Positions 40,291-48,431 of a DNA stretch of 64,000 nucleotides are shown one piece after another. Source of the stretch: Haloferax larsenii JCM 13917 (GTDB taxonomy: Archaea; Halobacteriota; Halobacteria; Halobacteriales; Haloferacaceae); NCBI RefSeq assembly GCF_000336955.1, contig NZ_AOLI01000019.1, positions 452,786-516,785 on the forward strand. The letters are read 5' to 3'. A program made the translations under genes and the position numbers. Numbering within the stretch: position 1 is the first letter of the stretch; every line of letters starts with the position of its first letter. The notes under the pieces were generated by a model. It had not been told where the DNA came from. It worked only from the letters and a program-made list of their open reading frames with translations, and made no database searches.

Positions 40291-40513
40291 ACTTCATCTC
40301 ACTCTCGCTCGTCAACACCGACCCACTCTCTCACGACTCTCTCACAGGTCTCCGATGACGTGGTCTCCCTTCGGCCCTCCTCTTAGTACCCGCCTAGTTC
40401 CCGTCTGTTCCCCGTCTATCGAACTCCCTAATCGACAGACAGCGTCGGGTAATGGCGGCCCGCGTTGCCATGGTCGCAACTCCCTTTATCAGTGGACCCT
40501 GACAGACGGGTAC

Positions 40514-41476
40514 ATGGCACGGGTCTCGGTCGGTGCACGAATCCACTTCGGCTTCCTCAACTTGAGCCTCGCGCGCGACCGCCTCTACGGCGGGTTGGGC
40601 GTGGCACTCGACGAGCCACGGGTAGTCGTCTCCGCCGAACCCGCCGCAGAAGTCCGGTGTCGCCACCCCGTCGCAACCGAATACGTCCAGCGGGCCGCAG
40701 ACCTCCTCGACATCGGCGGCGTCGACGTGGTAATCGAGCGGTCGCTTCCCCGACACACAGGTCTCGGAAGCGGGACGCAACTCGCGCTCGCAGTCCTCCG
40801 GGCGGTCGCCGAGGCGACGAACACTGACGCCGACGTTCGGAAGCTCGCACCCGAGATGGGGCGCGGCGGGCGCTCCGGTGTCGGCGTGGCGACGTTCGAA
40901 GCGGGCGGTGCCGTCATCGACGCGGGCCACCCGACAGCGCGCTTTACTACCGACAGACCCGACGACGGCGAGTGGACCGTCCCGCCGGTGGTCGCCCGGC
41001 ACTCGGTTCCTGACGACTGGCGCTTCCTGCTGGTCACGCCGGACGTCGACCCCGGAAGAAACGGCGCGGCGGAGGAGGCGAGCATGCGCACGGTCGTCGA
41101 GCGCGCCGACCCGACGACGAGCGACCGAATCGCCGGTATCGTCACCAGACGGCTTCTTCCTGCGCTCGCAGAGGGGTCGGCAGAACGCTTCGGCGACGCG
41201 GTCGAGTCGCTCGGCCGACTCAACGGTACGTGGTACGCCGACGAACAGGGTGGCGTCTACCGGCCGCCGGTCGGCGCTATCGTCTCCTCGCTCGACGAGT
41301 CGCCGGCGGTGTTCGGTGCCGGACAGTCCTCGTGGGGACCGTCGGTGTACGGCGTGACCGACGCCGAGCACGCCGACGAGGCGGTGGCGGCAGGACGGGC
41401 CGCGCTCGACGACGCCGGCGTCGCGGGAAGCGTCTCGCTCTGCCGTGGCCGGAACCGCGGCGCGCGAGTCGAGTGA
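40514..41476 (+). CDS. GHMP-family protein, beta-RFAP-synthase-like
   Basis: A 320-residue protein with the N-terminal ribosomal-S5-like fold and the GHMP phosphate loop LPRHTGLGSGTQLALA (about residues 77-92). The whole layout matches beta-ribofuranosylaminobenzene-5'-phosphate synthase (start of the methanopterin pathway in methanogens), including FGFLNLS at residue 12 and a GRGGRSGVG-containing loop. Haloarchaea are not known to make methanopterin, so the true reaction is open; a related pterin or ribosyl step is one idea. A weak TATA box (CCTTTATC) lies 30 bases upstream. Confidence 0.75.
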   Translation: MARVSVGARIHFGFLNLSLARDRLYGGLGVALDEPRVVVSAEPAAEVRCRHPVATEYVQRAADLLDIGGVDVVIERSLPRHTGLGSGTQLALAVLRAVAEATNTDADVRKLAPEMGRGGRSGVGVATFEAGGAVIDAGHPTARFTTDRPDDGEWTVPPVVARHSVPDDWRFLLVTPDVDPGRNGAAEEASMRTVVERADPTTSDRIAGIVTRRLLPALAEGSAERFGDAVESLGRLNGTWYADEQGGVYRPPVGAIVSSLDESPAVFGAGQSSWGPSVYGVTDAEHADEAVAAGRAALDDAGVAGSVSLCRGRNRGARVE

Positions 41477-41551
41477 GGGGGCGACACTGCGCTCGAAGGC
41501 GGCGTCGACCGCCCCGAAACGACTAACCGACCTGACCGAGTCGGTGGCGAC

Positions 41552-42388
41552 ATGGAGTACATCCCCTTCGGGGTCCCCCGACTCGACGGCATCATCGGCG
41601 GGGGCGCACCGCCGGGAAACGTCGTCCTCCTCGCGGGTGAGTCCGGTGCCGGCGCACGTGAGTTCCTCTACACGAGCGTCACGATGAACGGTCTCGCACA
41701 CGCCGACGAAGAGCTATTCGACCTTCACTACGGCACCCTCGACGAGTCGGCCAGCCCGCCGCCGGAGATTCACTACGTCTCGTTCACTTCCGGTGGGTCG
41801 TATCTCCACCGCGAGATGGGGTATACGATGGACGACGAAATCGTCGACGCCGCCACCGAACACATCGAGTTCCACGACCTCTCGTCTGAGTACTTCCAAC
41901 TCAGCGCGATTCCCCGCGAGTGGTACCTCGGGCAGACGACGACGCTCGACGACCTCGGAAGCCGTCACAACCGCGAATCCGTGTTGAACGCGCTCGGAAC
42001 GACACTGAGCGAACACGCACCCGGGAACCTCGTCGTCATCGACTCCGTAACCGACCTTCTCGCTGGTATCTCCGACGAGATGACGTGGTCCGACATCGCG
42101 ATGGTGATGAAGGGTCTCGCGACGGCCTCCCACCGGTGGGGTGGCCTCATTCTCGTTCTCGTGAGCACCGAGGCGCTGACAGACACACAACTCGGCCTCC
42201 TCAAGGGCGCGGCCGACGGGACGCTCCAGTTCTCGTGGGAGTCCGGGGGGTCGAAACGAGCGCGGACGATGGTCGTCCAGGAGTTCAGAGGCGTCCTCTC
42301 GCAGCTCGAAAGCGAGAACATCGTCCAGTTCGAGACCGAGATAAACGAAAGCGGGCTCGACGTGAGCGACGTCAGAAAGATTCGCTGA
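41552..42388 (+). CDS. KaiC/RecA-like protein with degenerate Walker A motif
   Basis: A 278-residue protein of the KaiC/RadA superfamily. The place of the P-loop reads GESGAGAR (29-36): Gly pairs are kept, but the Lys and Ser/Thr of GK(S/T) are Ala and Arg, so ATP hydrolysis is doubtful. A Walker-B-like strand (LVVIDSVTDLL) follows in the second half. Haloarchaea have several such HTR-like KaiC proteins connected with taxis or signalling. The next gene, 100 bases on, and the two after it (up to transcription factor S) have the same direction. Confidence 0.75.
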   Translation: MEYIPFGVPRLDGIIGGGAPPGNVVLLAGESGAGAREFLYTSVTMNGLAHADEELFDLHYGTLDESASPPPEIHYVSFTSGGSYLHREMGYTMDDEIVDAATEHIEFHDLSSEYFQLSAIPREWYLGQTTTLDDLGSRHNRESVLNALGTTLSEHAPGNLVVIDSVTDLLAGISDEMTWSDIAMVMKGLATASHRWGGLILVLVSTEALTDTQLGLLKGAADGTLQFSWESGGSKRARTMVVQEFRGVLSQLESENIVQFETEINESGLDVSDVRKIR

Positions 42389-42490
42389 GAGACCGGCGAT
42401 TTCGGCTCGAAACACTGTCGTGTCATCCAATTCTCACGCAACGTAGCGCGGAGCCAGTTCTTAAGGTGGAGCAGCCGAATTGCTACCAGC

Positions 42491-43426
42491 ATGGCAGGGG
42501 ACGACGGAGGTTCGCTCCCGGAAGACCTCCGCGACTGGGTCGACGAACGCGCCGAAGCAGAGGGCGTCGACCGGTCGACGATACTCACACGGGCACTCAG
42601 CGTCTACCGACTTGCTGTCACCGACTCGGGCGAGTCCGTCGACGCCTTGGAGTCACTTCCAGAGCGACTCGACGACCTCGAAGGGCAACTCGATAGTCTC
42701 GGAGACGACGTCGATACCCTCGAAGACGACGTTGGGGGCCTCGAAGACGACGTCGACGAGAAGATAGACGACGTGCGGATGCGCGTCGTGCAGGTCAAAC
42801 GCGAGACCGACGGGAAAGCGCCGAGAGACCACGACCACCCCGACCTTCAGGTCGGTATCGACCGCGCCACCGCAGGTGTCGAGGCCGTTCGCGACCGTCT
42901 CGACGAACTGGACGACCGCGTCGACACCGGCTTCGACAACTTCGAAGACGTGCTCTCGTATCTCGACGAGACGACCGCCGACCTCGATGGAAAGCTTCGG
43001 TCGGTCGTCCAGGCGCTGTTGAACGTTCGCGCCCGAACTTCGGACATCCAGGCTGCGGAACTCGAACGAAAGGCACTCGCCGACTTGCTCCGCGTCGCCA
43101 ACGACGCGAACGAGCGCAAAGCGAAGTGCGAGGCGTGTCGCGAGACGGTCCATCTGGACTTACTCACCGAGCCGCGGTGCCCCGCGTGTCAATCCCCGTT
43201 CCAGGAATTATCGGCATCGCGTGGCTTCTTCGGGTCTGCAACGCTCCACACCGGAACCCCGCCCGAACTCGAAGCGGCGGAGACCGACGGCGAGGAGACG
43301 ACAGGCGGCGTGGAGGATATCCTCGACGAAGCGACTGAGACAGACGCAGATGTCGAGCAACCGGGCCCCGTAGAGGACACAGGCAACACCGAGGTAACCG
43401 CCAGCGGCGAACACAGCGATGACTGA
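42491..43426 (+). CDS. Coiled-coil protein with ribbon-helix-helix-like start and zinc ribbon
   Basis: A 311-residue acidic protein. Residues 9-43 (PEDLRDWVDERAEAEGVDRSTILTRAL... in two helices) resemble a ribbon-helix-helix DNA-binding unit. Residues 52-100 are a coiled coil with repeated DDLE-type heptads, and a second helical block covers 125-205. A zinc site is formed by C213, C216, C230 and C233. The last 70 residues are acidic and disordered-looking. The gene overlaps the next by eight bases. The combination suggests a DNA- or protein-binding adaptor, but I know no named family. Confidence 0.7.
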   Translation: MAGDDGGSLPEDLRDWVDERAEAEGVDRSTILTRALSVYRLAVTDSGESVDALESLPERLDDLEGQLDSLGDDVDTLEDDVGGLEDDVDEKIDDVRMRVVQVKRETDGKAPRDHDHPDLQVGIDRATAGVEAVRDRLDELDDRVDTGFDNFEDVLSYLDETTADLDGKLRSVVQALLNVRARTSDIQAAELERKALADLLRVANDANERKAKCEACRETVHLDLLTEPRCPACQSPFQELSASRGFFGSATLHTGTPPELEAAETDGEETTGGVEDILDEATETDADVEQPGPVEDTGNTEVTASGEHSDD

Positions 43427-43970
43427 TTCCGACGACGCCCACGAGTCCAGTGACGACGGGGGCGATACGACCGAGACGGTAGACGACTTCCTCGGAGGCG
43501 ACGCCCGACAGGGACACGACGCCGACCACGAAACCGCCTCCGAAGACGGCGCAGACGTCGTTTCCGACGGCGACAGTGACCGCTCTGAGCCGCTTTCGGA
43601 TATCGCGAGTCGAGTCGCCGAACGCCGCGCCCAAGCGAGCGTCAGAGACGACAGCGAAGACGAGTTGTTCGAATCCATGAGCGTCGGCGACCTCGACGAC
43701 GAGGACGTGTGGACCTCGTTGGTCGATGGCGACGACGACGAGGAGGTCGCTGTCGGTGTCGGCGTCGGTGCCTCCGCAGAACCGGTCGACGACCACGGCG
43801 ACGTGTCCGACCCCGAGCACGTCATCCCGAAAAACGAGTTCTGCCAGCGCTGTGAGTACTTCTCCGACCCGCCGGAACTCGCGTGTACCCACGAAGGGAC
43901 GACAATCGTCGAGATGCCCGACAGCGACCACTTCTGCGTGCGAAACTGTCCGATGGTCGACGACGAGTGA
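43419..43970 (+). CDS. Acidic protein with a C-terminal cysteine cluster
   Basis: A 183-residue protein that starts inside the previous gene (eight-base overlap). The first 130 residues are Asp/Glu/Ser-rich and probably disordered. The C-terminus carries five cysteines, C142, C145, C156, C173 and C177 in CQRCEYF, ACTHEG and CVRNC, a likely zinc or iron-sulfur site. I cannot name a family. Coupled expression with the coiled-coil zinc protein suggests that they act together. Confidence 0.65.
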   Translation: MTDSDDAHESSDDGGDTTETVDDFLGGDARQGHDADHETASEDGADVVSDGDSDRSEPLSDIASRVAERRAQASVRDDSEDELFESMSVGDLDDEDVWTSLVDGDDDEEVAVGVGVGASAEPVDDHGDVSDPEHVIPKNEFCQRCEYFSDPPELACTHEGTTIVEMPDSDHFCVRNCPMVDDE

Positions 43971-44001
43971 GACGGCGCGCGTCGACTACGGAAGTGACAG
44001 A

Positions 44002-44008
44002 TTCTTAG
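44002..44008 (+). promoter_or_regulatory. tfs: TATA-like box for transcription factor S
   Basis: TTCTTAG is centred 27 bases before the ATG at 44032 and suggests a leaderless transcript separate from the genes upstream. Confidence 0.45.
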
Positions 44009-44031
44009 TGTCGCAACCGGCTAGTTTTGGT

Positions 44032-44361
44032 ATGCAGTTTTGCGACGAGTGCGGTTCGATGATGGTCTCACAGGACGGCACGATGGCGTGTACGAACGAC
44101 GAGTGCGAGGGGACCGCCGACCGGGACGAGGACCTCGCAGAACAGTTCGTCTCGACCGAGGTGCAGTCCGGCGACGAACTCATCGAGACCGAAGAGGGCG
44201 CGGACTTCGAGGGCAAACCCACTGCGAAGGACGTCGTCTGCGACGAGTGTGGCCACACCGAAGCGTGGTACACCATCAAGCAGACGGCGTCCGCGGACGA
44301 ACCGCCGACGCGGTTTTTCAAGTGCCAAGAATGCGGATACAGATGGCGGGAGTACAACTGA
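44032..44361 (+). CDS. tfs: Transcription factor S (TFIIS/RPA12 homologue)
   Basis: A 109-residue two-zinc-ribbon protein. The N-terminal ribbon has C4, C7, C20 and C25; the C-terminal ribbon has C70, C73, C98 and C101. The acidic hairpin tip SADEPP (D89, E90) needed for stimulating RNA cleavage by stalled RNA polymerase is kept, so it should be an active rescue factor and not an inhibitor. Length is normal. Cytoplasmic, acts on the polymerase secondary channel. Confidence 0.92.
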   Translation: MQFCDECGSMMVSQDGTMACTNDECEGTADRDEDLAEQFVSTEVQSGDELIETEEGADFEGKPTAKDVVCDECGHTEAWYTIKQTASADEPPTRFFKCQECGYRWREYN

Positions 44362-44937: not shown

Positions 44938-45210
44938 ATGACACCACCACCTGACCCCCCTAAACCGGACCTTGAGGTTCGGTGGATAGACGAAACGGAC
45001 TCACTGACAGAGGCACTGGTCACTGTGGCGACCGAACTCGGCGTCGACCCGACGCAAGAATCCACGCGCCTGCAAGACGTACTGGACGTGGACTCACTGC
45101 ACGCACTCGTCGGTGACACCAGAGCGACGACAGTCAAGATTTCGTTCGACATCTGGGGGATTCAGTTCACCGTCACGCCTCTCACCGTCGCTGCGACGAG
45201 TGACACCTAA
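44938..45210 (+). CDS. HalOD1-domain protein
   Basis: A 90-residue protein consisting of the haloarchaeal output domain 1: residues 22-90 have the pattern ALVTVATELGVDP...RLQDVLDVDSLHALV...ATTVKISFDIWGIQFTVTP. The domain is found as the output part of haloarchaeal response regulators or alone, with unknown ligand. A Pro-rich start precedes it. No receiver domain is encoded next to it. Confidence 0.8.
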   Translation: MTPPPDPPKPDLEVRWIDETDSLTEALVTVATELGVDPTQESTRLQDVLDVDSLHALVGDTRATTVKISFDIWGIQFTVTPLTVAATSDT

Positions 45211-46422: not shown

Positions 46423-46446
46423 CCGAGCGTCACTAAGATAGTGGGT

Positions 46447-47262
46447 ATGGGAATCCTCTCTCGCACGTCGTACGTCATTCGGTCGAAGATAAACGCCCTC
46501 CTCAACCGTGCGGAGGACCCGACCGAGACGCTCGACTACTCGTACGAGAAGATGCGTGACGAACTCCAGCAGGTCAAACAGGGTATCGCCGACCTGACGA
46601 CGCAGAAAAAACGGCTGGAGATTCAGAAGCGCCGCCTCGAAGAGAACGTCGAAAAGCACAACGAGCAGGCCCGCGAGGCCGTCCAACAGGACCGCGAAGA
46701 CCTGGCGCGGAAGGCCCTCGAAAAGAAGCAGGCCAAGATGAACCAAATCGAGGAACTCGACGCGCAGATTGCGGGCCTGCAGGACACACAGGACAACCTC
46801 GTCGAGAAGAAAAACGACCTGCAGAACCGCATCGAAGAGTTCCGCACGAAGAAGGAGACGATGAAGGCCCGCTACGAGGCCGCCGAAGCGTCGAGTCGCG
46901 TCTCCGAGGCCATGTCCGGCGTCGGCGACGAGATGGCCGACGTGGGTCGCGCGCTCGAACGCGCCGAAGAGCAGACCGACGAGATGGAAGCGCGGTCGGC
47001 CGCGATGGACGAACTCATGGATTCGGGCGCGTTCGAAGACCAGCTTTCGGACAAAGATGCCATCGAGCGCGAACTCGAAGCGGGTCGGTCGAACGCGGAA
47101 GTCGACACCGAATTAGAGACGCTGAAAGCCGAGATGGGCAAGTCGTCCGCTCCGGCAGAGGAGTCCGAGGCGGACGCCGACGTCGACCTCGACGAGAGCG
47201 TCGCAAACGAGGAAGTCGAAGCCGAACTGGAGGAACTCAAGAACGACGACGATTCGTCGTAA
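46447..47262 (+). CDS. PspA/IM30-family coiled-coil protein
   Basis: A 271-residue protein of the PspA/Vipp1 (IM30) family, which binds stressed membranes and forms ESCRT-III-like rods. The start MGILSRTSYVIRSKINALLNRAEDPTE is the N-terminal amphipathic helix and the phrase DPTETLDYSYEKMRDE is the family hallmark. Two long coiled coils follow (about 30-130 and 135-185), then an acidic tail of about 60 residues typical of halophilic members. It probably maintains membrane integrity; regulation by a partner is not visible. Confidence 0.9.
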   Translation: MGILSRTSYVIRSKINALLNRAEDPTETLDYSYEKMRDELQQVKQGIADLTTQKKRLEIQKRRLEENVEKHNEQAREAVQQDREDLARKALEKKQAKMNQIEELDAQIAGLQDTQDNLVEKKNDLQNRIEEFRTKKETMKARYEAAEASSRVSEAMSGVGDEMADVGRALERAEEQTDEMEARSAAMDELMDSGAFEDQLSDKDAIERELEAGRSNAEVDTELETLKAEMGKSSAPAEESEADADVDLDESVANEEVEAELEELKNDDDSS

Positions 47263-47345: not shown

Positions 47346-48431
47346 ATGTCGAACAGCGACGGGTCGTCGTCCGGCGAGCCGGGCGACAAAATGCGTGAAC
47401 GCGGCACGACGAGTCGGGCGAAACTCGGCGTCTACCTTCGGACCGACCGCCGAGTCGTCGCCGCGACTCCGCTCGTCGTCATCTTCGTCGCTATCGTCGC
47501 TATCGGCGTTCTTGCCCCGACGCCACTTCGAGACGCCGTCGCCTCCTCGGACCCAGTCGAGACGCTCGCACAGGGGCTTTTGACCGCTATCGTCACGGGC
47601 GTCACGCTGGTCGTCAGCATCAACCAACTCGTGTTGTCGCGCGAACTCGGCCCGCTCGGCGACCAGCGCGAGCGGATGGAAGGGTCGATGCGGTTCCGTG
47701 ACGACGTCGCTGACCTTCTCGACGTCCCTGTCTCCCCGCCCGAACCCTCGGCGTTCATGCGGGCGTTAGCCGAGAGTATCGCGGCGCGAGCGCGAGCAGT
47801 CGACGAAACGGTCTCACCTGACGGCGACGGAGACGCCGACACCGATAGACAGCCCTCGACAGACGACGTGAGCGCACGCGTCCACGAGTTCGCGACAGAA
47901 GTGGCGGAGAACGCCGACGACGTTGCTGCCCGACTCGACGGCAAGCAGTTCGGGACGTTCGAGGTGTTGTCGGCGGCGCTGGACCTCAACTACTCGTGGA
48001 AAGTTTACCAGGCGACGCGGCTGCGACGAGCCTCTGAGGACCTCTCGTCGGAGACGGAGGCGGCGCTTGACGACCTCGAAGACGCACTCGAACTGTTCGG
48101 ACCGGCACGCGAACACGTCAAGACGCTCTACTTCCGGTGGGAACTCGTCGACCTCTCGCGGGCGATGTTCTACGCGGCGGTGCCCGCGCTCGTGGCGAGT
48201 ATCGCAGCGATATTGTTTCTCGACAATCCCGGCAGCGTCGCGGGTGCGACGTTCGGCATCTCGAACCTGCTTCTCGTGGTCGCGTTCGTCACCGCCGTCT
48301 CGTTGTCGCCGTTTACCGTCCTCGCGGCGTACGTGCTCCGTATCGCCACGGTCGCCAAGCGAACCCTCTCTATCGGCCCGTTCGTGTTGCGGTCGGAGAC
48401 GCGAGACGAAAACCTCGACTGGGAATCCTGA
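47346..48431 (+). CDS. Membrane protein with four helices and a long cytoplasmic domain
   Basis: A 361-residue protein. Two helices near residues 41-58 and 75-95, a soluble section of about 180 residues, then two helices near 270-292 and 300-325, suggest that the middle part lies in the cytoplasm. The middle is acidic and helical (AFMRALAESIAARARA, EVLSALDLNYSW). I do not recognise the family. It is convergent with dgcA, six bases away. Confidence 0.7.
   Translation: MSNSDGSSSGEPGDKMRERGTTSRAKLGVYLRTDRRVVAATPLVVIFVAIVAIGVLAPTPLRDAVASSDPVETLAQGLLTAIVTGVTLVVSINQLVLSRELGPLGDQRERMEGSMRFRDDVADLLDVPVSPPEPSAFMRALAESIAARARAVDETVSPDGDGDADTDRQPSTDDVSARVHEFATEVAENADDVAARLDGKQFGTFEVLSAALDLNYSWKVYQATRLRRASEDLSSETEAALDDLEDALELFGPAREHVKTLYFRWELVDLSRAMFYAAVPALVASIAAILFLDNPGSVAGATFGISNLLLVVAFVTAVSLSPFTVLAAYVLRIATVAKRTLSIGPFVLRSETRDENLDWES

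Follow-up and report, generated by a model that had tools for sequence, protein, structure and literature searches.

This report concerns three adjacent genes, termed A, B and C, in a 64,000-nucleotide stretch of Haloferax larsenii JCM 13917 (the window; contig NZ_AOLI01000019.1, positions 452,786 to 516,785 of the forward strand), and a KaiC-family gene, K, located elsewhere in the genome. Gene A (41552..42388, + strand) encodes a KaiC-fold protein of 278 residues, classified as a pseudo-ATPase from its sequence. Gene B (42491..43426, +) encodes a protein of 311 residues with a ribbon-helix-helix (RHH)-like start, a coiled coil and a zinc site, as defined by alignment and family-wide co-occurrence. 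Gene C (43419..43970, +) encodes an acidic protein of 183 residues, described from alignments and an AlphaFold2 (AF2) model. The gene for transcription factor S (TFS; 44032..44361, +; 109 residues) follows, and a beta-RFAP-synthase-family gene (40355..41476, +; TIGR00144, 167 bits) forms the upstream border of the cassette. A first-pass annotation, made from the letters alone, had placed A, B, C and TFS on one strand, with B overlapping C. Coordinates and families were checked: all four genes are on the + strand, and the reading frames of B and C overlap by 8 nt.

Gene A matched the Pfam family KaiC (PF06745) with 35.9 bits (cut-off 26.6), and its AF2 model (mean pLDDT 83.5) aligned with KaiC structures at a Z of about 22 and an rmsd of 2.5-3.0 over 207-219 residues in the top-ranking comparisons. 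The P-loop, GESGAGAREF (41636..41665, +), carries Ala at the Lys position and Arg at the Ser/Thr position of the KaiC motif GxxGxGK[ST], and does not fit the Walker A pattern GxxxxGK[ST]. Moreover, the catalytic Glu pair after strand 2 is missing, and FTS/FTR/FTK-type residues are found there instead. The Walker B strand, LVVIDS (42029..42046, +), is retained, and its aspartate, D164, was invariant across the alignment.

These features are shared by relatives. The pattern G[ED]xGAGxx[EA]F fitted A in 110 of 120 haloarchaeal loci, a set that overlaps partly because some genomes were fetched twice, and the lysine was found in none of these 110 copies. The remaining ten comprised a few off-pattern variants, broken copies (L078, L079) and frames that the script did not read. 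The lysine was also absent from all 19 homologues inspected in other classes of the phylum. The first-pass description of a KaiC-like protein with a broken P-loop is thus confirmed, and the broken P-loop is a fixed trait. Between genera of the family, A proteins share about 60-70% identity, and A is far better conserved than B or C; the H. elongans gene is 99% identical to that of the window. Since conservation across genera is so high, the dead site seems to be held unchanged by selection, and A is, by its sequence, a lineage-wide pseudo-ATPase.

The best NCBIfam match of A was ArlH; it was partial and fell far below the equivalog cut-off (41.7 bits vs 215). The possibility that A is one of the H. 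volcanii proteins CirA-D was rejected, as all four are described with an intact Walker A motif and Glu pair in the sections of PMC3941300 used here. A plasmid search for A gave one record, from Natrinema, annotated 'HTR-like protein'. At one locus (L078, genome G031) A is in pieces, with the C motif twice downstream, indicating a disrupted cluster. Two distant A-like paralogues of about 28% identity, L068 (G053) and L064 (G049), have the P-loops GASDAGGDAF and GGIGTGYREF, respectively. These are differently degenerate, so other dead KaiC lineages exist.

The zinc site of B, C-x2-C...C-x2-C (C213, C216, C230, C233; 43127..43189, +), was invariant in 26 of 26 aligned members. The N-terminal segment (42491..42640, +), described at first pass as RHH-like, can only be called plausible as an RHH domain. 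When its profile was compared with the PDB, RHH antitoxins ranked first but weakly (MazE6, E=0.016; VapB26, E=0.098; both of which we take to be RHH proteins), and no RHH family was among the 25 Pfam families listed for the 26 members. Pfam and NCBIfam searches with B gave coiled-coil or zinc-ribbon noise and nothing more, and a plasmid search gave no record. B is modular: its RHH-like start is missing in some relatives (L062, L071), and in a group of Natrialbaceae B is reduced to this start (L215, L216), as an 82-residue gene in Natrinema. In genome G151 (L201/L220), the beta-RFAP-synthase-family gene and TFS flank a truncated B, cut inside its coiled coil, which represents a cassette in decay.

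The C-terminal metal site of C, C-x2-C-x10-C-x-H-x18-C (43842..43949, +), has the invariant ligands C142, C145, C156, H158 and C177. C had been presented as a five-cysteine acidic protein. It is acidic and does have five cysteines here, but the fifth, C173 (in 'FCVRNCP'), is Arg in most relatives and is not conserved. C is mostly disordered, with two short helices, and its AF2 model is poor. No family was found for C in Pfam or NCBIfam, and a short local PDB match to ribosomal eL42 around one zinc knuckle (E=0.0056) was not used. C began from 41 nt upstream to 22 nt downstream of the last base of B in 65 of the 77 loci with a motif-found C, the commonest overlap being 4 or 8 nt (start codons chosen by the script). 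The possibility that C is the iron-sulphur protein TFE-beta was also considered, and rejected: C has four invariant cysteines and no TFE family match. According to the portion of PMC5861453 used, HVO_1090 is the TFE-beta of Haloferax, and all four cysteines are missing from the candidates for TFE-beta in haloarchaea.

A single set of 292 Halobacteria genomes (completeness at least 90%) was searched with profiles of A, B and C. Raw matches numbered 240 for A, 239 for B and 235 for C; two weak A matches (G088, G217) and eight weak B matches (E 2.5e-5 to 9.7e-4) were dropped before counting. All three genes were present in 229 genomes and none in 51. The 12 mixed genomes comprised four with A alone, two with B alone, one with C alone and five with A and C but no B. 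Three of these last five were inspected: B was reduced to its start in two (L215, L216) and to a degenerate stretch in the third (L217).

Gene order is also kept. B and C directly follow A in 98 of the 120 A loci (97 in plain order and the broken copy L078), TFS lies within 4.5 kb downstream of A in 80, and a beta-RFAP-synthase-family gene lies upstream in 96. Of the other loci, 20 had no B, C or TFS downstream, one had only B (at a contig end) and one only TFS. At 15 loci A is elsewhere and B and C are still together, with TFS next on the same strand in 13; in one more genome (L174), A is divergent to B-C-TFS. The three genes occur together even where A is unlinked from B-C. Thus, the neighbours do not vary freely between genomes: A, B and C are co-inherited with their order kept, which supports the signalling unit that had been one of the two suggestions made at first pass.

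The KaiC-family gene K was first noticed as a companion of A-B-C when ArlH was tested over 36 matched genomes. It was present in 13/13 A-B-C-positive and 1/23 A-B-C-negative genomes, the one being G033, in which C is cut by a contig end. The ArlH control, counted over its cut-off, showed no association (7/13 vs 10/23). An archaellum link of A-B-C was therefore rejected, as ArlH presence does not follow A-B-C. K has a single KaiC domain with an intact P-loop (GSAGTGKT), an intact Glu pair and an acidic N-terminal tail. It passed the TIGR03880 (KaiC_arch_3) cut-off of 249.45 with 311 bits in the window's genome and 296 bits for L231. Counted only at E<=1e-60, K was found in 234 of the 292 genomes: A and K were both present in 233 and both absent in 53, with A only in 5 and K only in 1. 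In the window's genome K is located at G000:C19:196746-197450, about 300 kb from A (494337), so linkage cannot explain the match between A and K.

The distribution of A was then mapped on a tree of PyrG and GuaAb for 60 genomes, chosen to include most of the A-less ones then listed (three of them without PyrG). G033 was manually scored as A-present, since A and B would lie beyond the contig end at C, and G183 as A-absent, its match (E=1e-32) being taken as a paralogue. A changed 16 times (Fitch) or 17 times (loss-only), counts that depend on a two-gene tree and serve as an upper guide. Every A-less genome was also K-less, and two further K losses were seen (G104, G170).

Published H. volcanii cirB primers for quantitative PCR (PMC3941300, seen in part) were compared with 10 Haloferax K loci. 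The forward primer matched exactly in 7 and the reverse primer with one mismatch in 9. Therefore K is taken as the CirB orthologue. According to the sections of the two sources used, the other cir genes become arrhythmic under light/dark cycling once CirB is lost (PMC3941300), and CirB abundance rises with quorum-sensing medium in the wild type and not in a ddfA deletion (PMC12240190). In K genes L228-L238, L245 and L246, the acidic tail carries a recurring DWFERAL or similar motif and a DF..A motif, which are possibly docking motifs.

Homologues of A extend beyond Halobacteria. At E<=1e-8, A was matched in 81 genomes from other classes of the phylum, of which 19, mostly the best-scoring, were inspected. 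A K-family gene lay directly after A in 19/19, and genes for T2SSE and T2SSF, the type IV pilus motor, lay divergently upstream of A in 17/19. A and K are also adjacent in two haloarchaeal genomes that lack B and C (G042, G044; loci L059, L061), and are apart in the other haloarchaeal A loci inspected. In a KaiC tree, all A proteins, from all sources, formed one clade with support 1.0. The support of the K clade, 0.49, says little because this tree has only one outgroup domain. The adjacency outside the class and in G042 and G044, together with the single A clade, indicates an old, linked pair. A and K form a single evolutionary unit, which B and C joined in haloarchaea, and the A-B-C arrangement seems to be new to haloarchaea. 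Makarova et al. 2016 (PMC4858521) noted that in Methanomicrobia the KaiC families arCOG01172 and arCOG01173 may share a transcript with a VirB11/TadC operon. Their position beside a VirB11-type ATPase/TadC operon resembles that of A and K outside the class, and they are likely to be A and K; the part of that paper used here mentions no broken P-loop or haloarchaeal counterpart, and the identity is likely only.

The reading that we favour, and consider probable, is that A is the non-catalytic and K the catalytic partner of an ancient two-protein KaiC-family module, with B and C as haloarchaeal adaptors. That A, K, B and C are functionally linked is very probable, whereas a physical A-K complex has chances only slightly better than even. 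In such a module, A and K would form mixed or stacked RecA-type rings. K would bind or hydrolyse ATP or auto-phosphorylate, and A would serve as a scaffold or adaptor, as the KaiC-fold ArlH does for its motor. A might then recruit B, with its DNA-binding-like start, coiled coil and zinc site, and C, with its acidic docking helices and metal site, and both could pass the state of K to an output. Candidate outputs are the type IV pilus motor (the ancestral neighbour), a shape/motility switch and transcription; the data choose none, and any single one of them is unlikely. A bolder version, which we regard as tentative and rather doubtful as a whole, would be a Halobacteriota two-subunit KaiC machine, with K/CirB as ATPase or kinase and A as obligatory dead subunit, that arose beside a type IV pilus motor; haloarchaeal A would have been re-wired, via the two new zinc adaptors B and C beside TFS, into a switch of gene expression or cell state.

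Several observations weigh against the two-protein module. A and K disagree in six genomes: G104, G170, G180, G183 and G251 have A and lack K, and G033 has K and lacks A. The module does not require B and C, since G042 and G044 have A and K and lack both. A-B-C was lost mostly from the linked state, so that block deletion explains part of the A/B/C correlation, although not that of A and K. The Fisher p-values for co-occurrence ignore phylogeny. In addition, the haloarchaeal loci examined had no pilus gene in the vicinity of A or K, and TFS was kept in 36/36 genomes tested, 22 of them without A-B-C.

This retention of TFS bears on a rival reading, in which A-B-C is a transcription module acting with TFS at RNA polymerase. 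B would bind DNA, B and C would touch the polymerase or TFS, A would be a scaffold, and K would be correlated for some other reason. TFS itself passed the TIGR01384 equivalog cut-off (74 bits vs 64.75) and contains the acidic DE pair (SADEPPTRFFKC) in its C-terminal ribbon, which is functionally relevant in TFS. Its proximity to A (within 4.5 kb in 80/120 loci) and the RHH-like start of B would suit such a module, and where A has moved B-C stay beside TFS (13/15), so that a transcriptional output is still conceivable. However, TFS is a neighbour rather than a member, as it is retained when A-B-C is lost; in several genomes without the cassette it is adjacent to the beta-RFAP-synthase-family gene (L200, L203, L210, L211, L225). 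Moreover, K, and not TFS, comes after A outside the class, and the RHH assignment of B is weakly supported. We therefore judge a transcription module improbable, and the first-pass suggestion of a polymerase-associated assembly, taken with TFS, is weak. Two more TFS-like genes occur in the same genome (G000:C9:153304 and G000:C17:224440), one over and one under the family cut-off.

It is also unlikely, in our estimate, that A regulates the type IV pilus motor in haloarchaea too, as ArlH does the archaellum motor, with K as ATP-dependent partner and B and C as accessories. The T2SSE-T2SSF genes beside A-K in 17/19 loci outside the class, the resemblance of part of A to ArlH (41.7 bits) and the earlier association of KaiC families with pilus operons (PMC4858521, in the part used) all point this way, but the haloarchaeal loci examined, in which neither A nor K has a pilus gene nearby, do not. 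Finally, the correlations could be mostly phylogenetic, a few lineages having lost many regulators together, with A, B, C and K functionally unrelated. Indeed, losses cluster in the Natrialbaceae-like family f7 and also in f5 and f14, and several of the genomes concerned have few KaiC genes of any kind. Against this, the tree shows about 16-17 separate changes in which A and K are concordant bar two extra K losses, ArlH does not follow the A-B-C pattern, and the A-K adjacency outside the class is independent evidence. A mostly phylogenetic origin is highly improbable.

The two-protein module resembles several known systems in part. With KaiC and archaeal KaiC-like ATPases (PF06745), A shares the whole fold, a single RecA-type domain, the Walker B strand and a C-terminal RG motif; unlike them, it is without the Walker A Lys, the Ser/Thr and the catalytic Glu pair, a loss fixed across the lineage. 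Inactivated KaiC domains ('iKaiC') are likewise KaiC folds thought inactive in a signalling context. As described in the excerpted text of PMC5847659, these sit with HalOD1, receiver or PAS domains, whereas A is free-standing, mostly single copy and paired with a specific active KaiC. The closest working analogue is ArlH/FlaH of the archaellum, a KaiC-fold regulator beside a T2SSE-type motor. As far as the consulted part of PMC8978795 goes, ArlH binds ATP without hydrolysing it and, when ATP-bound, is believed to stimulate the motor ATPase ArlI; A, in contrast, has no standard P-loop. H. volcanii CirB and K agree in having a single intact KaiC domain, besides the primer match, and the sections used of PMC3941300 mention no pseudo-KaiC partner. 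Literature searches covering the HTR-like protein, inactivated KaiC, arCOG01172/01173, CirB and pseudo-ATPases yielded no description of the A-B-C cluster or of the A-K pairing, which is not proof of absence. The first-pass remark that no described system came to mind was mostly right; it missed the unlinked partner K/CirB and the published KaiC-pilus operon neighbours (PMC4858521, in part).

Altogether, the comparisons suggest that A, K, B and C constitute an undescribed archaeal signalling module. A role as signalling hubs has been proposed for the KaiC-like proteins of archaea, few of which have known partners. Comparative genomics names the pseudo-ATPase A as a partner of CirB, with B and C, two unannotated zinc-site proteins, as likely adaptors. 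CirB is already tied to light/dark rhythms (PMC3941300) and to quorum-sensing conditioned medium (PMC12240190), again from partial texts. Since orthologues exist in genetically tractable Haloferax species, partners of archaeal KaiC proteins become directly testable.

Some minor features of the locus were also recorded. When upstream sequences were compared by eye, a BRE/TATA-like element, CGAAACG(A/C)CTAACC (41515..41528, +), was found before A, and a TATA-like box, TTCTTAAG (42458..42465, +), before B, where it is kept in relatives. Conserved boxes before both genes suggest that A and B may have separate transcription starts. Just downstream of TFS, the window contains a gene for a small HalOD1 protein (44938-45210; PF18545, 33.7 bits, above cut-off) with a sub-threshold DdfA match (17.4 bits vs cut-off 70). 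Further downstream, a PspA/IM30 gene (46441-47262) is followed by a gene for a protein with a sub-threshold DUF2721 match (47346-48431), and this pair is kept downstream of TFS in several relatives.

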